From the NCBI RefSeq assembly GCF_003992615.1, contig NZ_RZMY01000006.1, positions 372,001-436,000 of the forward strand: 64,000 nucleotides of DNA, given 5' to 3'. The translations under genes were made by a program, and so were the position numbers. This stretch comes from Flagellimonas beolgyonensis. Lineage in GTDB: Bacteria > Bacteroidota > Bacteroidia > Flavobacteriales > Flavobacteriaceae. Positions 18,779-44,248 of the stretch are shown piece after piece. Numbering within the stretch: position 1 is the stretch's first letter; each line of letters opens with the position of its first letter. The notes under the pieces are model-generated. The model saw nothing but the letters and a program-made list of their open reading frames with translations. It did no database searches and was not told where the DNA came from.

Positions 18779-18846
18779 TGTGACCCAAATCACTTTTAAA
18801 ACGTGACTTGCGTCCTTCCCATTCCAACAACTTCCTCCAATCTTTG
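18779..18846 (+). promoter_or_regulatory. Crp-type tandem-box promoter, copy 1
   Basis: The dyad TGTGACCCAAATCACT (18779-18794) fits the Crp/Fnr form GTGA-N6-TCAC. A second degenerate box GTGA-N6-TCCT begins exactly 23 bp downstream (GTGA at 18803), and AATCTTTG (18839-18846) resembles the Bacteroidota -7 element TAnnTTTG. The same three elements at identical spacing recur at 22123 and 25162. If transcription starts about 6 bp after the -7 element, the second box is centred near -42, the class II activator position. The DJ-1/PfpI start codon follows 35 bp downstream. Confidence 0.75.
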
Positions 18847-18880
18847 TGTCTATATTTTTTAAACAAAAAGTATAGCACAC

Positions 18881-19639
18881 ATGAAAAATTTGACTACCGT
18901 TCTGGCATTATTGGTTTTCTGTATGGCCAAGGTTCCTGCACAAGAGAACATAAAAGTATTGATGGTCCTTACTTCACATGACGAACTTGGTACAACGGGC
19001 AAGAAAACAGGTTTTTGGATAGAAGAATTTGCCACTCCCTACTACTTCCTTAAAGACAAAGGGGTTGATATTACGATAGCTACCCCAAAAGGAGGCCAAG
19101 CGCCAATTGACCCAAAAAGTAACGATCCATCCTTCCAAACAGAATCTACCAAACGTTATTTCAAAGACAATGAAACTCAAAACAAGATAAAAAACACCTT
19201 GAAACTATCATCTGTGAAAGAAGAACAATATGATGCTGTATTTTACCCGGGTGGACACGGTCCACTCTGGGACCTGGCCAATGACAGGCACTCCATCGCC
19301 CTTTTGGAATCTTTCAATAAGAGTAAAAAGCCCATGGCGTTGATTTGTCACGCTCCAAGTGCCCTAAAATACGTAAAGGATGAAAATGGGAATCCCCTTG
19401 TTAAAGGAAAAAAAGTGGCGGGTTTCAGCAATTCGGAGGAAGAAGCCGTTAAGCTTACCAAGGTTATTCCCTTCTTGGTGGAAGACATGTTGACGGATAA
19501 CGGGGGCATCTACCAAAAGGGTCCGGACTGGTCTTCCTTTGTAGTAAAGGAAGGGAATCTGATCACGGGTCAAAATCCCCAATCATCCGAGGAAGCCGTA
19601 GCACTACTTTACAACATGGTCGTTGAAGCAAAACGCTGA
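18881..19639 (+). CDS. DJ-1/PfpI-family protein, exported
   Basis: A 252-residue protein with a signal peptide (about 1-20, ending in PAQ) and a type 1 glutamine amidotransferase-like fold of the Hsp31/DJ-1 branch. YPGGHGPLWDLA precedes the nucleophile elbow ICHAPS with C156. Related proteins act as glyoxalase III, chaperones or thiol-stress enzymes; which activity applies cannot be read from the sequence. It is the first gene behind the Crp-type promoter copy 1 and is followed 46 bp later by the nitronate monooxygenase gene. Confidence 0.85.
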   Translation: MKNLTTVLALLVFCMAKVPAQENIKVLMVLTSHDELGTTGKKTGFWIEEFATPYYFLKDKGVDITIATPKGGQAPIDPKSNDPSFQTESTKRYFKDNETQNKIKNTLKLSSVKEEQYDAVFYPGGHGPLWDLANDRHSIALLESFNKSKKPMALICHAPSALKYVKDENGNPLVKGKKVAGFSNSEEEAVKLTKVIPFLVEDMLTDNGGIYQKGPDWSSFVVKEGNLITGQNPQSSEEAVALLYNMVVEAKR

Positions 19640-19685
19640 TCAACTTTCTATCTAAAAAGCATCTTCTACCAAATACTCGACACAA

Positions 19686-20774
19686 ATGAATTGGAAAAAT
19701 GATTTGACCCGTACATTGAAAATCCACTACCCCATAATACAAGGGCCCTTTGGTGGTGGGTATTCATCCATAACATTGTCGGCCACGGTAACCAATTTAG
19801 GGGGCATGGGTTCTTTTGGGGCACACCATTTGAGCCATGATGAAATTTTAACCTTGAACAATCAGCTAAAGTCAAAATGCAAAGGAACCTACTCCATTAA
19901 TCTTTGGATTAAAAACGATAGTTATAACGATTTTTCCAATCAAGATTTTGAAAAGACAAAGGCAGTTTTCAAACCTTACTTTGATGAATTGAATATCCCC
20001 GTTCCAGAGAAACCTGTTTTGACCGAAGACCATTCTTATGGTCGCCAGTTGGAAGCGATTTTAAAAGCAAAACCTCCTGTTTTCAGTTTCGTATATGGTG
20101 TTCCTGACGAATCCGTGCTCAAGGAATGTAAAAAGCGTGGCATTTTAAGCTTGGGGACGGCCACCACTGTGGAAGAGGCAGTTTTGCTGGAGGATGCCAA
20201 GGTTGATGCCATAGTGGCCACGGGATTTGAGGCAGGAGGACACAGGGTCGCTTTTGCAGATGAACCTGAAAACAACTTGATCGGTGGTCTTTCGTTGATA
20301 CCCCGGGTGGTGGATGCCGTTAAAATCCCGGTTATTGCCGCCGGAGGGATTGCAGATGGAAGAGGAATTGCTGCTGCCTTGGTTCTTGGTGCAAAAGGGG
20401 CGCAAATCGGAACTGCATTTTTGGCCTGTGAGGAATCAAATGCTTCCCATGCACATAAAAATGTATTGTTTTCGCAAAAAGCGGAAAAAACCGTGCTGAC
20501 CAAATCTTTTACGGGTCGCCTGGCTAGGGGAACGGATAGTATAGTGGCGCAAGAAACATTGCAAGATGCATCGAGGATAGCACCCTATCCCATTCAAGGA
20601 TTATTCATGCGACCACTTCGCAACGCTGCACTTCAACAAAATAAGCTGGAATTAATTTCATTTTGGTGCGGCCAATCTGCTCCCCTGATCAAGAACAAAA
20701 CCGCCAAAGAACTTTTTACCACGCTAAAAATAGAAACTGAAAGTGTTTTTAATGAAATGGCCGATATCGCTTAG
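19686..20774 (+). CDS. Nitronate monooxygenase-like FMN enzyme
   Basis: A 362-residue cytosolic TIM-barrel flavoprotein of the nitronate monooxygenase/2-nitropropane dioxygenase family. YPIIQGPFGGGYSS forms the first phosphate/flavin loop. GFEAGGHRVAF near 180 carries the family His, and PVIAAGGIADGRGIAAALVLGAKGAQIGTAF is the FMN phosphate-binding region. Members detoxify nitronates such as 3-nitropropionate; some act as enoyl reductases. No signal peptide. It lies between the DJ-1 protein and an SDR on the same strand. Confidence 0.88.
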   Translation: MNWKNDLTRTLKIHYPIIQGPFGGGYSSITLSATVTNLGGMGSFGAHHLSHDEILTLNNQLKSKCKGTYSINLWIKNDSYNDFSNQDFEKTKAVFKPYFDELNIPVPEKPVLTEDHSYGRQLEAILKAKPPVFSFVYGVPDESVLKECKKRGILSLGTATTVEEAVLLEDAKVDAIVATGFEAGGHRVAFADEPENNLIGGLSLIPRVVDAVKIPVIAAGGIADGRGIAAALVLGAKGAQIGTAFLACEESNASHAHKNVLFSQKAEKTVLTKSFTGRLARGTDSIVAQETLQDASRIAPYPIQGLFMRPLRNAALQQNKLELISFWCGQSAPLIKNKTAKELFTTLKIETESVFNEMADIA

Positions 20775-20865
20775 GGTATCCAAAAACTCATGGTAATTCC
20801 CGTCATTTCAAACCCACTTTTAGTTCAAAAAAACAGCATAAAATAACAAACAATAGAAAAAGATA

Positions 20866-21612
20866 ATGGAAAACTTCAAGGACAAAGTGGCCATCGTTGT
20901 TGGTGGAACCAGTGGTATAGGAATGGCCACAAGTGAACAATTACTTTCAAAAGGTGCCATAGTCCACATTGTGGGCCGCAATACTGATAAGGTCCAAGAT
21001 CATCCAAATCTTATTAAACATCAATTTGATATCACTAACAGTGATCAATTGGATGGTCTGATAAAAAAGATAGGTTCATTGGACAAAATCGATTATTTGG
21101 TGAATGCTTCGGGCATATTTTTCCCAAAACCGTTCCTGGAACACACCAAGGAGGATTATAACTCGTATTTGAATCTGAACAAAGGATTCTTTTTTCTGAC
21201 CCAAGCAGTGGCTTCAAAAATGAAGGACAACAATGGTGGTTCAATCGTAAATGTCGGTTCTATGTGGGCTAAACAAGCGGTAAAGGCAACCCCTTCTTCG
21301 GCGTATTCCATGCAAAAAGCGGGATTGCACTCTTTGACCCAGCATTTGGCCATGGAATTGGCAGATCACGGCATAAGGGTGAACGCCATTTCCCCAGCAG
21401 TGGTAAAAACTCCGGTATATTATGCCGTGTTTGGCGGAAAGGACGAAGCGGAAAAGGCATTGGAAAACTTCAATGGCTTTCACCCCGTTGGAAGAAACGG
21501 TTCCCCCGAAGACATTGCAAACTGCATTCTGTTTTTATTGTCCGAACAAGCCTCATGGGTTACCGGTGCCGTATGGGATGTGGATGGAGGTGTCATGGCC
21601 GGAAGGAATTAG
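20866..21612 (+). CDS. Short-chain dehydrogenase/reductase (canonical)
   Basis: A 248-residue SDR with the complete catalytic set: cofactor motif GGTSGIG near 13-19, NAS at 80-82, S132, and Y147-x3-K151 (YSMQK). A C-terminal [10 protein letters not shown] is typical of classical SDRs. NADP(H)-type alcohol/ketone oxidoreduction is expected; the substrate is unknown. It is third in the run behind Crp-type promoter copy 1, 91 bp after the nitronate monooxygenase gene and 24 bp before the membrane protein gene. Confidence 0.9.
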
Positions 21613-21636
21613 CCAACCGTTAAAACTTTAAGGTAA

Positions 21637-22038
21637 ATGAAAAAAATCCTGATCACTTTCGGTATTGTACTTTTTGCCCTGGTTGTTCCCATTTTGGAAA
21701 TCAACTCATCCCATGTCTTTAATCCGGATTGGACACCCCATGCCAAAATACATGAGGTATGGCAACTGTTGACCAATTCAAGTATCGGAATACTGTGTTT
21801 ATGGCTTGTTTGGGTCAAAAATGACACCCGCTTCAGCTGCCTTTTAAGTTTGATCGTCATGGGTGGATTTCTCTTGGCCTTTGTACTGAAAGAAAGCTAT
21901 GGTGGTTCCATGAAATATTTGGATGGAAGTGAGAAAACCCTGATCGGCATTAACATTGGTATTTTAGGTTTCGGAGTTGCGTTTCTTCTTGTTCTTTGGG
22001 TGTTACTTACTGATGTCATGAACAAAAAAGACCAATAG
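21637..22038 (+). CDS. Four-helix membrane protein, unknown function
   Basis: A 133-residue hydrophobic protein with four predicted helices (about 4-20, 46-62, 68-86, 105-126). I do not recognise the family. Motifs visible are HVFNPDWTPHAKIHEVWQ after helix 1, and ESYGGSMKYLDGSE before helix 4. The first of these looks like an extracytoplasmic loop with two His and two Trp. It is 24 bp after the SDR gene and is probably the last gene of the first transcription unit of the island. Confidence 0.7.
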   Translation: MKKILITFGIVLFALVVPILEINSSHVFNPDWTPHAKIHEVWQLLTNSSIGILCLWLVWVKNDTRFSCLLSLIVMGGFLLAFVLKESYGGSMKYLDGSEKTLIGINIGILGFGVAFLLVLWVLLTDVMNKKDQ

Positions 22039-22122
22039 TTGAACAATACAAATCTCCTTCTTTACAGCAAAAACCAATTACCACGTTATGAAACATTTCC
22101 AAACAAATTTCAGCTGGAAAAG

Positions 22123-22190
22123 TGTGATGCAAATCACATTTATTTTGTGATCCATCTCCTTTCCCAGTGAAATATAGAAACGGAATTTTG
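22123..22190 (+). promoter_or_regulatory. Crp-type tandem-box promoter, copy 2
   Basis: A perfect dyad TGTGATGCAAATCACA (22123-22138) is followed by a degenerate box GTGA-N6-TCCT whose GTGA begins at 22147 (23 bp downstream of the first GTGA). GAATTTTG (22183-22190) matches the -7 element of Bacteroidota promoters in the last five positions. Spacing of all three elements is the same as in copies at 18779 and 25162. The tautomerase start codon lies 25 bp after the -7 element. Confidence 0.8.
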
Positions 22191-22214
22191 TGTAAAATCT
22201 AAAAATTAAAAATC

Positions 22215-22418
22215 ATGCCATACGTCAATATCAAGATTACCGACGAAAACGTGACAATAACCCAAAAAAAGGAATTAATCAAAGGGGTAACACAGTTACT
22301 TGTGGACATTTTGAACAAAAGACCCGAAACGACCCACGTGGTCATCGATGAAGTACCGATCGACAATTGGGGAGTACAGGGAGAGCTATATTCTGAAATC
22401 AAGCATAAGTACAATTGA
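22215..22418 (+). CDS. 4-oxalocrotonate tautomerase-like enzyme
   Basis: A 67-residue protein of the tautomerase superfamily. The N-terminal Pro directly after Met (MPYVNIKI) would be the catalytic base once Met is removed. THVVIDEVPIDNWGVQGEL matches the conserved second half. Members isomerise keto/enol forms, or in some branches dehalogenate. The protein normally forms hexamers. It is the first gene behind promoter copy 2 and 13 bp before the alpha/beta hydrolase gene. Confidence 0.9.
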   Translation: MPYVNIKITDENVTITQKKELIKGVTQLLVDILNKRPETTHVVIDEVPIDNWGVQGELYSEIKHKYN

Positions 22419-22431
22419 AAAGTTTTGAAAA

Positions 22432-23295
22432 ATGGTTCAGCAAATAGCATACAGAAGCAAGGTCATAGCGGGTATGAAAATCGCCTATCGGGAAGCAGGG
22501 AACCCTAACAATCCTGCCATTGTACTCTTACATGGTTTTCCGACCTCATCCCACATGTACAGAAAAGTGTTGGATGGACTTGCGGATGCCTATTATTTGA
22601 TCGCTCCGGATTATCCAGGCTTTGGTGAGAGTGATTTTCCCGATCCAAGTACTTTTACCTACTCCTTTGATAATTTGGCAAGGGTCACGGATGCCTTCAT
22701 CGAAAGTTTTGGCCTGGACAAATTTTCCATTATGATGCAGGATTACGGGGCCCCGATCGGTTTTAGGATTGCTACCGCCCACCCTGAAAAGATCAAAGCC
22801 ATTATTACACAGAACGGCAATGCCTACGAGGAAGGATTGGGAGAAGGATGGGCCGGAATCAGGGAACTTTGGGCCAACCAAAATGAAGAAACTGAAAATG
22901 CTCTATTGTCCTATTTTGGTGTTGAAGGGTTGAAATGGATCTATACCCATGGTACCCGGAATCCTGAACTGGTAAACCCCGATTGTTGGAACCTGGATCT
23001 ATTGAAGTTATCCAGGCCCCAAGCCCATAGGGCGCATTTGGATCTTTTCTATGATTATCGAAACAACCTGACTGCCTATCCCCAATGGCAGCAATATTTG
23101 AGGGAGTACCAGCCACCGGTGTTGGTGGTTTGGGGCAAAAATGATATGTTCTTCCCGGAATCGGGTGCACAAGCTTTCAAGAAAGACGTGAAGAACGTGG
23201 AGTGTCATATATATGACACAGGACATTTCGCCCTGGAGGAAGAGGGGTCGAGCATCATAGTGGACATTCGTAACTTCATGCATTCAGTGGCATAA
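22432..23295 (+). CDS. Alpha/beta hydrolase with Asp nucleophile (haloalkane dehalogenase/epoxide hydrolase-like)
   Basis: A 287-residue cytosolic hydrolase. HGFPTS at 34-39 forms the oxyanion region. The nucleophile elbow is Q103-D104-Y-G-A, an Asp and not Ser, as in haloalkane dehalogenases and epoxide hydrolases. The acid lies in VWGKNDMFFP and the base in DTGHFALEEE. The substrate class (halide, epoxide or fluoroacetate-type) cannot be decided from the sequence. It is adjacent to the tautomerase gene. A close paralogue with a signal peptide is encoded at 37414-38379. Confidence 0.88.
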   Translation: MVQQIAYRSKVIAGMKIAYREAGNPNNPAIVLLHGFPTSSHMYRKVLDGLADAYYLIAPDYPGFGESDFPDPSTFTYSFDNLARVTDAFIESFGLDKFSIMMQDYGAPIGFRIATAHPEKIKAIITQNGNAYEEGLGEGWAGIRELWANQNEETENALLSYFGVEGLKWIYTHGTRNPELVNPDCWNLDLLKLSRPQAHRAHLDLFYDYRNNLTAYPQWQQYLREYQPPVLVVWGKNDMFFPESGAQAFKKDVKNVECHIYDTGHFALEEEGSSIIVDIRNFMHSVA

Positions 23296-23417
23296 ATCGG
23301 TAACCGCATTGGCCCGCAACTTCGCCACACAGAAAAGGTAGGATTGTCACGGGTATCCGTATGGCTTTATCAGGGTTTGTGGCGACCCTCGTTAGTCCAC
23401 AAAGTAATGTTCAAAAA

Positions 23418-24224
23418 ATGGAAATATATATTGTAAATGCCTTTACCGACCTTGCCTTCAGTGGAAATCCGGCAGGTGTTTGTTTGGTCGAAAGGCCGTT
23501 GGGTGACTCGAATATGCTCTCGATTGCCGCGGAGTTGGGATTTTCCGAAACCGCATTCGTACATAAAAGGGACAGGACGGACCATTTTGCGATACGCTTT
23601 TTTTCTCCCAAAATGGAAATCCCATTATGTGGCCATGCCACCCTAGCGGCTGCAAAGGTACTTTTTGAAAAAAACACCCAAACCGACCATCTCCATTTGA
23701 TAAACATTGACCAGGTGGATTTGTTCATCCAATGGGCCAGTGACCAGATCCAAATGGAATTTCCGGTATACGGGACCGAACCTGAAAAGGCATCAAATTC
23801 CCTGCTCAATTCCCTTGGATTGAATCATACCATCAACGTACGATACAACAGGGAAATGAAGATTCTGATGATCCACATTGAAGATGTTGGTCAACTCAGG
23901 GCATTACAGCCGGATTTTACTGCTTTATATCAATCGCACGATTCCATCAACGGGGTCCTTGTAACCGCTCCATCAATGACAGCAGGGTTTGATTATGAAT
24001 ACCGCTATTTTTGGCCCTGGAGCGGTACTAATGAAGACCCGGTAACGGGTGCCGTTCAAACTTTCCTGGCCAACTATTGGAGTGAACGATTGGGAAAGAA
24101 AATCTTGAATTGTTTTCAATGCTCCAAAAGAACGGGAAAGATGAAATTGGAACTCATTGATGGCCACAGACTCATTATCGAGAGTACGGCCAAAATTATC
24201 CTCAAAGGCGAATTTTTCCTTTGA
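23418..24224 (+). CDS. PhzF-family isomerase/epimerase
   Basis: A 268-residue protein of the PhzF (diaminopimelate-epimerase-fold) family. I take ATG 23418 (MEIYIVNAF) as start because it begins at the conserved family N terminus; the longer frame from 23361 adds unrelated residues. FSGNPAGVCLV near 11-21, ETAFV with the catalytic Glu near 44, and CGHATLAAAKVL near 72 are family signatures, and GTNEDPVTGAVQTFLA near 210 is the second conserved half. The family includes many enzymes of unknown substrate; phenazine synthesis genes are absent here. Confidence 0.88.
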   Translation: MEIYIVNAFTDLAFSGNPAGVCLVERPLGDSNMLSIAAELGFSETAFVHKRDRTDHFAIRFFSPKMEIPLCGHATLAAAKVLFEKNTQTDHLHLINIDQVDLFIQWASDQIQMEFPVYGTEPEKASNSLLNSLGLNHTINVRYNREMKILMIHIEDVGQLRALQPDFTALYQSHDSINGVLVTAPSMTAGFDYEYRYFWPWSGTNEDPVTGAVQTFLANYWSERLGKKILNCFQCSKRTGKMKLELIDGHRLIIESTAKIILKGEFFL

Positions 24225-24573
24225 TAAGACTTGTTCCCGGACACATATAAATATCAATTGCCTACAACCAACTTTGGCAAGAAAGCTCCACGCGTACAAA
24301 AGCGATGCTACTTTGGGCAACATGGCAGCCTTCCCCCTTTTTTGATTCTTAAGCGTGAATGAGGAGCACTCTTTATACAGTTGCAATAAAACTGAATTGA
24401 GGGGCGAGAGGGCAATTGGACTTGTTAATTTTGAATTGACAAATCCATACTTACGACTTTTGGGATCCCATCTGCAGAATCAAACCGGTATCATCATCAA
24501 GGTTTGAAATCGCAACTTGGCCAACTCTTGTCTATATTTGTATGCAGGCTGTATTTCAATTTTTTGATATATA
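24225..24573 (+). other. Intergenic stretch before the Crp-family gene
   Basis: No coding sequence or hairpin terminator is convincing in these 349 bp. The only element noted is an exact TAnnTTTG match near the 3' end. No copy of the Crp-type tandem-box module was found here, so the regulator gene itself does not appear to share that promoter type. Confidence 0.5.
24533..24540 (+). promoter_or_regulatory. Candidate -7 element of the Crp-family gene
   Basis: TATATTTG is an exact match to the Bacteroidota -7 consensus TAnnTTTG and sits 33 bp before the start codon at 24574. No TTG at the usual 19-20 bp spacing upstream was found; one lies 13 bp upstream (24517-24519), so the promoter call is tentative. 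Confidence 0.4.
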
Positions 24574-25137
24574 ATGAAACACCCATTGAGGACACATATC
24601 GAGGAGATTGTTCCGCTCACAGATGAGGAATTTGACTTTGTGTTGAGCCATTTTGGGCATATCAAAAGACGTAAGCACCAATACATCGTCCAAGAAGGGG
24701 AATTTGTAGACAAGGAATACTGGGTCATAAAAGGTTGCTTAAAAAGTTATTTTTTAGATGAAACGGGAAAGGAGCATATCCTTCAATTTGGTCTGGAAAA
24801 TTGGTGGATCACCGATTATGAATCGTTTGTAAAAAAAACCAAATCCAAAACCTCAATAGATTGTTTGGAAGATTGTGAATTGCTCTATATCACATACGAA
24901 AATCGGGAAATACTGACCACCAAGATGCATAAAATGGAACGATTCTGGGCCAAAAAAAGCAAATTGGGCCGGATTGCACTTCAAAATAGGATATTGTCCC
25001 TTCTGAAAAATTCTGTGAAGGAACGTTATGATCTGTTTCTTGAACAGTACCCTCAACTCCTGCAACGTATCCCTAAAAGGCTCATTGCTTCCTATCTCGG
25101 TGTTTCTCGGGAAACACTCAGTCGACTACATAGCTAA
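24574..25137 (+). CDS. Crp/Fnr-family transcriptional regulator
   Basis: A 187-residue protein with an N-terminal cyclic-nucleotide-binding-like beta-barrel (HQYIVQEGEFVDKEYWVIKGCLKSYF) and a C-terminal HTH (IPKRLIASYLGVSRETLSRL). It lacks the FNR iron-sulfur cysteine cluster and has only scattered Cys. Its gene lies between units headed by three identical Crp-type promoter modules, which makes it the best candidate for their regulator. The signal it senses is unknown. Two other Crp-family genes lie at 40652 and 43649. Confidence 0.9.
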   Translation: MKHPLRTHIEEIVPLTDEEFDFVLSHFGHIKRRKHQYIVQEGEFVDKEYWVIKGCLKSYFLDETGKEHILQFGLENWWITDYESFVKKTKSKTSIDCLEDCELLYITYENREILTTKMHKMERFWAKKSKLGRIALQNRILSLLKNSVKERYDLFLEQYPQLLQRIPKRLIASYLGVSRETLSRLHS

Positions 25138-25161
25138 TACTCCTTTGTTCTATCGTTTCAA

Positions 25162-25229
25162 AGTGATGGAGGTCACATCGAATTTGTGATTTGCCTCCTT
25201 TTCATCTTATCGGTTGGATAAGAACTTTG
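25162..25229 (+). promoter_or_regulatory. Crp-type tandem-box promoter, copy 3
   Basis: Dyad AGTGATGGAGGTCACA (25162-25177), a second box GTGA-N6-TCCT with GTGA at 25186, and -7-like GAACTTTG at 25222-25229. From the first GTGA to the second is 23 bp and to the end of the -7 element is 66 bp, the same as in copies 1 and 2. The SDR start codon follows 24 bp later. The module lies just 24 bp after the stop codon of the Crp-family gene. Confidence 0.75.
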
Positions 25230-25252: not shown

Positions 25253-26002
25253 ATGAAAAACAAAACGGTAATCATAACCGGTGCTTCGACCGGTATTGGC
25301 AAGGCCATTGCCCAACTGTTCATTGAGAAAGGTAACAATGTTGTGATGAACTCAGCGAACGAATCCAGATTAAGGGCCACCTACGAAGAATTCGGGGCTC
25401 CCGAAAATGCAGTAATGGTTCCTGGTGATGTGAGTGACAAAGAAGTTGGAGAAAAACTGGTTCAAGAAGCGATTTCCAATTTTGGCACATTGGATGTGTT
25501 GATCAACAATGCGGGGGTCTTTGCACCAAAGCCGTTCCTTGAAGTGGAGGAATCGGATATTGACAGGTACATGGACATCAATTTTAAGGGCACTTATTTT
25601 ACTTCCCAAGCAGCCATAAAACAAATGTTGAAACAAGGACACGGAGGAACAATCATCAACAACGGAACTGTACTTGTGGATCATGCCATAGCCGGTTTCC
25701 CATGCTCCGCCCCTTTGGCAAGTAAGGCTGCCATACATACCTTGACCCGGCACTTGGCCGCGGAATTTGGAAAGGACAACATTCGTGTGAACACCATTGC
25801 ACCCGGTATCATTAGAAGCCCCCTTCAAGGAAAAATAGGTGTTGAGGATGCCGATAGCTTGGCAGGATTGCATCTTTTGAACCGAATTGGCGAACCAGAG
25901 GAAATTGCGCACGCTGCATATTATCTGGCTTACGCCGATTTTGTTACCGGAGATACCTTGAATGTGGGTGGTGGACATTCTGTTGGACATGCCATAGGTT
26001 AG
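25253..26002 (+). CDS. SDR-family protein with altered catalytic residues
   Basis: A 249-residue classical-type SDR: cofactor motif GASTGIG at 10-16, NNAG at 85-88, C-terminal TGDTLNVGGGHSVG. The active site is unusual: in the position of the catalytic Tyr of YxxxK there is Pro (P154-L-A-S-K158), and the catalytic Ser position appears to be Thr (T139). The substituted codons read cleanly with no frameshift, and the rest of the fold is intact. It may be a non-catalytic or differently working SDR. It is the first gene behind promoter copy 3 and 11 bp before the NTF2-like gene. Confidence 0.85.
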   Translation: MKNKTVIITGASTGIGKAIAQLFIEKGNNVVMNSANESRLRATYEEFGAPENAVMVPGDVSDKEVGEKLVQEAISNFGTLDVLINNAGVFAPKPFLEVEESDIDRYMDINFKGTYFTSQAAIKQMLKQGHGGTIINNGTVLVDHAIAGFPCSAPLASKAAIHTLTRHLAAEFGKDNIRVNTIAPGIIRSPLQGKIGVEDADSLAGLHLLNRIGEPEEIAHAAYYLAYADFVTGDTLNVGGGHSVGHAIG

Positions 26003-26013
26003 TTTATAGCTTT

Positions 26014-26388
26014 ATGTTCGACAAAAGTGTAAGAAAGATAGAAGAGACCATCAGAATATATTTTGATGGGCTCTTCTTTGGAGATATCGACAAACTCAAA
26101 AAGGCTTTTGACGCAGAATGCGTCCTGTTTGGTGACATTAATGGGGAATCTTATCGGAAATCCTTGGAAGATTACCTTGCGGGCGTTAAAAACAGAAAAA
26201 GTCCAAGTGAGTTGAAAGAGACCTTTAAAATGGAGATTTTGGCCATTGAAGTATTGGGCCACGTGGCCATTGCCAAATTACATGTGCCCATGCTGGGTTA
26301 TAATTATTATGATTTTCTGTCATTGACAGAGATTGATGGGGAATGGAAAATTGTGAACAAACTTTTTGTACATGTGGGTAATGTATAG
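26014..26388 (+). CDS. NTF2-like (lumazine-binding/SnoaL-type) protein
   Basis: A 124-residue protein with the NTF2-like pattern: helical N terminus (KIEETIRIYFDGLFFGDIDKLKKAF), a central SYRKSLEDYLAGV segment and a C-terminal sheet ending in FLSLTEIDGEWKIVNKLFVH. These small cone-shaped folds bind or isomerise hydrophobic ligands; no enzyme activity can be assigned. It begins 11 bp after the SDR gene and is followed by a strong terminator, so the two form one transcription unit. Confidence 0.75.
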   Translation: MFDKSVRKIEETIRIYFDGLFFGDIDKLKKAFDAECVLFGDINGESYRKSLEDYLAGVKNRKSPSELKETFKMEILAIEVLGHVAIAKLHVPMLGYNYYDFLSLTEIDGEWKIVNKLFVHVGNV

Positions 26389-40651: not shown

Positions 40652-41233
40652 CTAATTTGACCTTCGAATGTAGCTGAGGAACTCTTTGGTCATACCCAAA
40701 TAAGAAGCGATCATGTATTGCGGTACACGTTGCTCCAAATTCTTGAAACGTTTACGAAATTCTTCATAACGTTCCTTGGCCCCCATACTTAAATTTAGGT
40801 GGTGACGCTCCTGTAATTCACTGTGTGCATTTTGAAACTTTATTCTAAAGAAACGTTCCAATGGAGGTATCTCATCAAATAACCTTTCCAATTTATCCTT
40901 ATGGATCTGGAGCACCACAGATGGTTCTATTGCTTGTATAAACTGTTCGGATGGTTTTTCCCCGATATATCCTTGAAGGTCACTGACACAAGTACCTTTG
41001 ATACCGAACTGCATGATTACCTCACGATCACTCACAAGCCTGTAAACCCTAACACATCCTTCAACCACAAAGTAAAGGGAATCTGCCTTGGAACCCGGTT
41101 GAAGCAAATATTCCTTTTTTTTGAGAAAATTTACCTTAAATGCTTTCCTGATCCGAAGAAGTTGTTCTGTAGAAAAATCGGTATAGTCAGTGAGTACTTT
41201 CTGAACAGGAGAAAAAAGATCCGATGGTACCAT
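40652..41233 (-). CDS. Crp/Fnr-family transcriptional regulator
   Basis: A 193-residue regulator with an N-terminal cNMP-binding-like domain (EYLLQPGSKADSLYFVVEGCVRVYRLV) and C-terminal HTH (VPQYMIASYLGMTKEFLSYI). No FNR cysteine cluster. It lies 72 bp upstream of the cyclase gene on the same strand and may control it. I found no GTGA-N6-TCAC dyad in this neighbourhood, so its operator is probably different from the 18-25 kb module. Confidence 0.9.
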   Translation of the reverse strand: MVPSDLFSPVQKVLTDYTDFSTEQLLRIRKAFKVNFLKKKEYLLQPGSKADSLYFVVEGCVRVYRLVSDREVIMQFGIKGTCVSDLQGYIGEKPSEQFIQAIEPSVVLQIHKDKLERLFDEIPPLERFFRIKFQNAHSELQERHHLNLSMGAKERYEEFRKRFKNLEQRVPQYMIASYLGMTKEFLSYIRRSN

Positions 41234-43648: not shown

Positions 43649-44248
43649 TTAATCTAGATTAACATGGTGTACGTGTTCATTTCTGAGTTCGCTTCTGATT
43701 TTACTAAGAAACTCTTTGGTAATACCAAGGTAGGAAGCGATCATATATTGGGGCACCAACTGTTCAATTTCAGGATATTTGGCCAAGAATTCCAAATATC
43801 TTTCACGTGCGGTCTTAGAGAAATTGGCAATGACCCTTTTTTCTGAAGCAACAAATGCCTTTTGAACAATCAATCTGAAAAAACGTTCCAACTGGGGAAT
43901 TTTTTGGTACAACAGTTCCAGCCCTTCATGTGTAAACTGGATCACTTCGGTATCATCAAGACATTGTACATGGTACGATGCAGGTGTCCTTGTTGTAAAA
44001 CTGCCCATATCCCCTGTCCACCAATTCCGTATGGCAAACATTACCACATGTTCATTGCCATACTTGTCCAAATAAAATGTGCGCGTACACCCATTCAAAA
44101 CAAAGTTTTCATAATTGCACACATCACCCTGCTGTACAATATATTGACCCTTTAAATAGGTACGCTTGGAAGTGTGGGACAACAAAAGCCATTTATCTTC
44201 CAAAGACAATTCCACGTACTGTTCAATGTATCTATATAGTTGTTCCAT
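43649..44248 (-). CDS. Crp/Fnr-family transcriptional regulator
   Basis: A 199-residue regulator. ATG 44248 (MEQLYRYIEQYV) was chosen as the family start; the frame extends nine codons further. cNMP-binding-like domain TYLKGQYIVQQGDVCNYENFVLNGCTRTFYL and HTH VPQYMIASYLGITKEFLSKIRSEL are clear. Its C-terminal part is very similar in wording to the Crp protein encoded at 40652 (VPQYMIASYLG-TKEFLS), suggesting paralogues. It precedes the YceI gene on the same strand. Confidence 0.9.
   Translation of the reverse strand: MEQLYRYIEQYVELSLEDKWLLLSHTSKRTYLKGQYIVQQGDVCNYENFVLNGCTRTFYLDKYGNEHVVMFAIRNWWTGDMGSFTTRTPASYHVQCLDDTEVIQFTHEGLELLYQKIPQLERFFRLIVQKAFVASEKRVIANFSKTARERYLEFLAKYPEIEQLVPQYMIASYLGITKEFLSKIRSELRNEHVHHVNLD

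Follow-up and report, generated by a model that had tools for sequence, protein, structure and literature searches.

A probable tandem Crp-type operator-promoter module associated with a clade of short Crp-like regulators in Bacteroidota

At class II promoters the activator is centred at position -41.5. In the best known activator of this kind, the CRP protein of E. coli, the GTGA half-site is contacted by the residues of an R-E-x-x-x-R pattern at positions 180, 181 and 185, and cyclic AMP (cAMP) is contacted by E72, R82 and S83. The sigmaA promoters of Bacteroidota carry a TTG at -33. The sigmaA box of Flavobacterium psychrophilum is TAnnTTTG at -12 to -5, according to a published study (PMC9723704). 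Here we describe three promoters found in a stretch of 64,000 nucleotides from Flagellimonas beolgyonensis (contig NZ_RZMY01000006.1, positions 372,001 to 436,000), which is called the window below. Each promoter carries two adjacent CRP-like boxes and a -7 element, and the gene of a short Crp-like protein, called 24574 after its first base, is located just before the third of them. The same module recurs behind genes of one Crp subfamily, and its arrangement makes it quite probable that this subfamily activates operons of the SDR, tautomerase and DJ-1 type through a cooperative class II tandem site.

Layout and position of the three modules

The pattern GTGA-N6-TCAC-N9-GTGA-N6-TCCT-N26-TTTG is shared by three sites on the forward strand of the window, with the first G at 18780, 22124 and 25163 (Table 1). 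The layout reported in the initial annotation, which was made from the sequence alone, is found with all its spacings in the three copies: the two GTGA begin 23 bp apart, box 2 has TCCT as its right half, and the G ending ANNTTTG is located 66 bp after the first G. The coordinates reported with it (18779, 22123 and 25162) are each one base too low. With up to three mismatches allowed in the 20 fixed bases, the window contains these three matches, all of them exact, against a mean of 0.01 in shuffled sequences; none of 100 shuffles contained three. The dyad GTGA-N6-TCAC alone is weak evidence, with 3 found against 0.66 expected and 5 of 100 shuffles reaching 3. Outside the fixed bases the copies agree pairwise at only 16, 18 and 22 of 47 positions, and for this reason the three modules are not recent duplicates of DNA.

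Module 3 starts 25 bp past the stop codon of the Crp gene, and the same place behind the regulator is the conserved one in other genomes. The regulator gene follows module 1 at a distance of 5.7 kb and module 2 at 2.4 kb. The section GTGA-N6-TCAC-N9-GTGA occurs exactly three times in the whole genome (3.77 Mb in 18 contigs), always in this cluster, and the reversed control gives no site. Allowing up to three mismatches yields 16 sites in the genome and 15 in the control, which adds no more than background, and a single-box class II pattern gives 3 sites across the genome against 2 in the control. The predicted regulon of this genome, by the pattern searched, is made of these three promoters.

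The location of the boxes relative to the start of transcription was computed from the published position of the -7 box. Because the sigmaA box occupies -12 to -5 (PMC9723704), position 72 of the module is the predicted +1, and the predicted centres of box 2 and box 1 are -41.5 and -64.5. A spacer of 27 nt, where it occurs, adds one to each centre. The value for box 2 agrees with the earlier proposal that this box is centred near -42, in the class II position. It had also been proposed that box 2 replaces the usual -33 element, and indeed no TTG is present at module positions 38-40 in any of the three modules.

Recurrence of the module beside RETLSR regulators

The 20-base module was scanned in 84,980 GTDB species genomes, and at least 118 stretches were obtained; the counts given below rest on 80 loci with 82 modules. 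These sites were selected for TCCT and N26, and both features can be judged freely only in the other scans. By record titles, 79 of the 80 loci belong to Bacteroidota (Flavobacteriia 41, Cytophagia 18, Sphingobacteriia 9, Chitinophagia 8, and others), covering at least five NCBI classes; one of them, L061, is from Flavobacterium johnsoniae. The lone exception (L071) comes from a metagenome bin named Thalassovita (Alphaproteobacteria). With a Crp gene that shares 56% identity with that of the window, its contig is probably misbinned Bacteroidota. A Crp gene with the recognition helix RETLSR is located within 300 bp upstream of the first GTGA in 66 of the 82 modules, at a median distance of 4 bp. 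These regulator genes lie on the same strand as the module in 64 cases and are divergent in two, and in five modules the regulator gene ends within the first GTGA, using its TGA as stop codon. In the Pedobacter loci L076 and L091 the module sits between a Crp gene on the opposite strand and a gene of the DUF1349 type, where it could also control the regulator gene. No conserved autoregulatory box was found upstream of the regulator; matches with one mismatch occur in 3 of 33 RETLSR genes, at different places.

For the reverse test, loci were chosen by protein similarity alone, and a box was sought in the 260 bp that follow the Crp gene; genes with a match ending before residue 183 or situated less than 100 bases from the locus end were left out. 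An exact GTGA-N6-TCAC is present behind 27 of 33 RETLSR genes (counting the one in the window) and behind none of 34 relatives with other helices. With one mismatch allowed, the counts become 30 of 33 and 1 of 34 (L211). Among 100 genomes of the family, the exact tandem module occurs in 11 of the 18 with an orthologue of at least 48% identity and in none of the 82 without; Fisher values for these counts ignore relatedness. In G051 (locus L022), which is among the 18, stops interrupt the reading frame of the orthologue, yet a tandem module persists behind it, with GTGG in box 2. An enrichment of the module beside orthologues of the 24574 gene, which the initial annotation had proposed to look for, is seen in all three comparisons.

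The right half of box 2 and the spacer could be assessed where they had been left free. With the right half left free, 27 sites of the family have TCCT in 26 cases, TCAT in one and TCAC in none. In a separate scan with TTTG left free, the distance from TCCT to TTTG is 26 nt in 26 of 27 family sites and 27 nt in the other (three of these sites are the window's own). The 45 RETLSR loci chosen by protein contain two boxes in 32 cases, three in four, one in four and none in five. In this count only TC was required at the start of the right half, and L197 and L204 were counted as box-less, since their box is beyond the reach of the scan. The 36 tandem arrays have TCCT in the proximal right half in 30 cases, TCAT in three, TCTT in two and TCAC in one, and their spacer is 26 nt in 28 and 27 nt in eight. 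Single-box promoters have TCAC in four of four (TCAC or not against the arrays, Fisher 5.5e-5, relatedness ignored). In the three-box arrays (L012, L013, L015 and L016), which have a 23-bp period, TCCT is confined to the promoter-proximal box. Box 2 had been described as degenerate; its TCCT does differ from TCAC, but it is conserved rather than merely degenerate. We read it as a proximal site that may have been weakened by selection, so that its filling would need the upstream dimer. The geometry had been described as fixed, and this is true for the 26-nt spacer in the three modules of the window; elsewhere the spacer is 26 or 27 nt, and the boxes number one, two or three.

Two kinds of variant were observed. 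L243 and L244, from the same genus and with orthologues of 66-68% identity, have TCAT where TCCT is usual, and behind their operon stands a gene for nitronate monooxygenase. In L045 (G016) the whole spacer from box 2 to the -7 element is taken up by an inverted repeat (ACCTCCTTAGCAA and its complement), of which the TCCT half-site is a part; the distance to TTTG is 27 nt, not 26.

Reduction of 110 sites at 80% identity left 83 non-redundant sites. Their operator consensus, TGTGAYnTAnRTCAC, is of the classical CRP type, and their -7 region reads (C/G)AnYTTTG. The A of TAnnTTTG is present in 99% and the TTTG in 98-100% (partly selected by the search pattern), while the first T is present in 16% and gives way to C or G in 82%. 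At position 72, the predicted +1, 95% of the sites have a purine. There is a weak preference for T/T/G at the place of the -33 element, and the bases from box 2 to the -7 element show no conservation.

A tree of 56 RETLSR and 40 other proteins, taken after redundancy reduction, was built with the columns of the helix left out. All 56 RETLSR proteins are found on one side of one branch, with a Shimodaira-Hasegawa-like approximate likelihood ratio support (SH-aLRT) of 100. As judged from these sequences, the association of helix and box is one old inheritance kept for a long time, and not many independent gains. The earlier term local regulon is too narrow: in the genome studied here all exact modules are in this cluster, but the unit of regulator and module is shared by several classes of Bacteroidota. 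It appears that the regulator and its DNA site are inherited as a pair and that they control a set of detoxification-like enzymes.

Regulator protein, putative mechanism and alternatives

The chain of the 24574 protein ends just after the recognition helix, giving a short helix-turn-helix (HTH). It contains the cyclic nucleotide-binding β-roll domain (PF00027, E 2.3e-09, above the cut-off); its C-terminal HTH has no match to a Pfam HTH family, yet the phmmer alignment to CRP runs to residue 185. The AlphaFold2 model (predicted local distance difference test score 95) shows helices at 168-175 and 179-185 and matches the structures of 3dn7, FNR and CRP, which places it in the CRP/FNR fold. In the phmmer alignment GVSRETLSRL is paired with GCSRETVGRI of E. 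coli CRP, and the R-E-x-x-x-R contact residues of CRP are present in the helix (SRETVGRI against SRETLSRL). All six residues of RETLSR are invariant in 66 proteins, although these were picked by the motif. In 103 RETLSR proteins (33 from protein-chosen and 70 from module-chosen loci), R179 and T181, which are part of the label itself, are present in 100%, against 7% for either residue in 40 others. Cys97 lies outside the definition and is present in 97% of the clade against 33% of the 40 other relatives, and Lys168 in 100% of the RETLSR proteins. The cAMP-contact positions of CRP fall on D81, S91 and K92 in the alignment, and the classical contacts are not matched. Because these residues replace those of CRP, cAMP is unlikely as the ligand of 24574, and the ligand of the whole subfamily is probably not cAMP.

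The genome of F. beolgyonensis codes for ten short Crp-like proteins at E 0.001 or better, and the other nine carry different helices. Two of these paralogues are found in the window, at 40667-41125 and 43691-44239 (both on the reverse strand), with the helices KEFLSY and KEFLSK; no GTGA box is present in the 260 bp read downstream of either gene.

These features allow us to propose that the three modules are operator-promoters of the 24574 protein. One dimer would occupy the full distal site, of the TGTGAYnTAnRTCAC type, centred at -64.5. A second dimer would occupy the proximal site at -41.5, weakened to GTGA-N6-TCCT, with the help of a contact to the first dimer 23 bp upstream. Being in the class II position, at the place of the -33 element, the proximal dimer could then recruit the sigmaA polymerase of Bacteroidota to a promoter in which the first T of the -7 consensus is mostly missing. 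The expected outcome is that the SDR, tautomerase, DJ-1, nitronate monooxygenase and NTF2-like genes are switched on.

A further role of TCCT may be suggested. The half-site could be a compound element, read jointly by the downstream Crp subunit and by region 4 of the Bacteroidota sigmaA (or another part of the polymerase), so that a half-site shared by activator and sigma factor would replace the -33 element; the upstream dimer would make it a cooperative switch, and Cys97 would be an electrophile or redox sensor. This extension is tentative and, taken as a whole, not very likely.

Several observations weigh against the proposed activation by the 24574 subfamily. Sixteen of the 82 modules lack a RETLSR gene in the adjacent 300 bp: in seven of them the gene is 0.96-2.2 kb off, and in nine there is none in the locus, two of these modules being near the locus end. 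A Crp relative with another helix (TVHLSR) is located 77 bp from the module of L130, on the opposite strand, and a shortened match (166 and 133 residues, respectively) adjoins the module in L137 and L100. Six of the 33 RETLSR genes are without an exact box in 260 bp, and in L199, L203 and L205 there is none within one mismatch; in L197 and L204 the exact box is about 245 bp behind the regulator gene, not in its usual place by the stop codon. Since the RETLSR proteins form one clade, the association counts are not independent events. The 27-nt spacer in eight of the 36 arrays would shift the proximal centre to -42.5, and the base at the predicted +1 of module 1 is T instead of the usual purine. 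The full-length Crp encoded elsewhere in the genome (contig C2, locus L231) has the helix AREVVSR, which is also CRP-like. Finally, a site at -41.5 could also serve for repression.

In the case of repression, two dimers on the module would block the polymerase, and an inducer would free the promoter by releasing them. Repressors govern many detoxification operons, and box 2 overlaps the -33 region, which is consistent with such a block. However, the promoters have the character expected of activator-dependent ones, mostly without the T that opens TAnnTTTG (82% of the 83 sites have C or G there) and, in the window, without the -33 TTG. The near-fixed distance of 26 or 27 nt to the -7 box suits a contact with the polymerase better than a block. 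The predicted centre of box 2, -41.5, is the class II position, and we consider repression unlikely. The modules might also be bound by another protein of the Crp family, such as the full-length one of L231, with 24574 as a mere neighbour. The helix of L231 fits the pattern R-E-x-x-S-R expected for GTGA, and its full C-terminal HTH is above the cut-off of PF13545. The distribution of its close orthologues does not follow the module: they occur, at 73% identity or more, in five of 99 other genomes (G071, G025, G010, G042 and G051), none of which has the exact tandem module. G051 has the module with a single change, and there it is beside the broken RETLSR orthologue. The ten other genomes of the set with the exact module carry only relatives of L231 with 30-40% identity, and the modules adjoin the RETLSR gene. 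Judged by this distribution, the full-HTH protein is a very improbable binder.

The recurrence of the module could in principle reflect the shared ancestry of one gene cluster, its DNA being kept for another reason, for example as terminator of the regulator gene. It is true that the RETLSR group is one clade and that the site is at the 3' end of the regulator gene in most loci. However, the first downstream genes differ widely while the module persists, two modules of the window and seven elsewhere are at the distances from the regulator gene given above, and the stretch from box 2 to the -7 element is not conserved. This explanation has hardly any probability left, and activation by the RETLSR protein from a tandem class II site is the reading that we prefer.

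Controlled genes and comparison with known systems

The coordinates of the modules, the regulator and the three units are collected in Table 1. Family searches of the gene products gave the same composition of the units as that initially assigned. The distance from TTTG to the start codon is 34, 24 and 23 nt in the window and 20-31 nt in 60 of 78 other loci.

Table 1. Modules, regulator gene and putative target units in the window
Feature	Position	Strand	Description
Module 1	18780..18846	+	Box 1 18780-18793; box 2 18803-18816 (right half TCCT); -7 element ANNTTTG 18840-18846; predicted +1 near 18851 (via published -7 position); upstream of unit 1 (DJ-1/nitronate monooxygenase/SDR/membrane)
DJ-1/PfpI family protein	18881..19639	+	Unit 1, first gene
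Nitronate monooxygenase family protein	19686..20774	+	Unit 1
SDR oxidoreductase	20866..21612	+	Unit 1
Membrane-type protein	21637..22038	+	Unit 1; without Pfam or NCBIfam match
Module 2	22124..22190	+	Box 1 22124-22137; box 2 22147-22160; -7 element end 22190; predicted +1 22195 (via published -7 position); upstream of unit 2 (tautomerase/hydrolase/PhzF)
Tautomerase family protein	22215..22418	+	Unit 2, first gene
Alpha/beta hydrolase	22432..23295	+	Unit 2
PhzF family protein	23418..24224	+	Unit 2
Crp-subfamily regulator	24574..25137	+	187 residues; recognition helix RETLSR at residues 179-184
Module 3	25163..25229	+	Box 1 25163-25176; box 2 25186-25199; -7 element end 25229; predicted +1 25234 (via published -7 position); upstream of unit 3 (SDR/NTF2)
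SDR oxidoreductase	25253..26002	+	Unit 3, first gene
NTF2-like protein	26014..26388	+	Unit 3; Pfam Lumazine_bd_2

The first downstream gene was scanned for 78 of the 82 modules. It belongs to the DJ-1/ThiJ family in 22-23 cases, tautomerase in 21, SDR in six, cyclase in five, DoxX in four, MFS in three, DUF1349 in three, aldo/keto reductase in two and YceI in two, with others in the rest. Fifteen neighbourhoods of orthologues with 66-82% identity were compared, ten from the same genus (of 11 other genomes of the genus with orthologues of 66-82%) and five from other genera (of seven unbroken orthologues of 75-81%). The Crp gene, the module, the tautomerase and the NTF2-like gene are present in all 15, the SDR gene in 14 and the nitronate monooxygenase gene in two; the module is exact in ten and has one or two mismatches in five. 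In Xanthovirga (L108) the tautomerase, SDR, DJ-1, NTF2 and nitronate monooxygenase genes stand in a row behind a single module, while the window splits these families over three units with one module each. This fits the division of one ancestral operon, with a control element on each part. The enzymes suggest a role in the handling of carbonyl, quinone or nitro compounds.

Short Crp-like proteins are numerous in Bacteroidota, and the linkage of regulator, helix, operator and promoter position that spans several classes could make the function of a large family assignable. The link of helix and operator may help to predict the sites of other short-Crp clades, such as those with KEFLSK or PESLSR. 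The tandem layout with its conserved TCCT also offers a clean test of an activator working with the atypical sigma factor of Bacteroidota. No description of the operator or of the clade was found among the literature matches listed, in a search that left subscription papers mostly outside. Riemerella crpR1 was set aside by its published description (PMC13277301), its protein sequence not being compared with 24574.

The closest solved relative is the cyclic nucleotide binding regulatory protein of Cytophaga hutchinsonii (3dn7), both by sequence (E 1.7e-34) and by fold. The two proteins have the short Crp architecture in common, but the helix of 3dn7, TPEYLSEI, is without both arginines, and 3dn7 is therefore not a RETLSR protein. 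The flavobacterial sigmaA promoters described in PMC9723704 have A-n-n-TTTG at the matching place and a short leader, as have the promoters studied here; the latter differ in the first T, which is C or G in 82% of the 83 sites, and the three of the window are without the -33 TTG. The class II promoters of E. coli CRP are alike in the CRP fold (structures 1cgp and 2cgp are among the matches to the 24574 protein or its model), the R-E-x-x-x-R helix, the operator of the TGTGA-N6-TCACA type and the centre at -41.5. Here, in contrast, a second dimer site is located exactly 23 bp upstream, a TCCT half-site is placed by the promoter, the classical cAMP contacts are absent by alignment, the chain stops after the recognition helix, and the -7 box is that of Bacteroidota. 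Class III promoters of E. coli also have two CRP dimers, one at -41.5 and one upstream; in the present module the upstream site abuts the other (23 bp) and is not tens of base pairs off at the class I position. The clade of Bacteroidota regulators described here, with its probable class II operator-promoter of nearly constant tandem layout, would be a variant of CRP-type activation and not a new kind of system.

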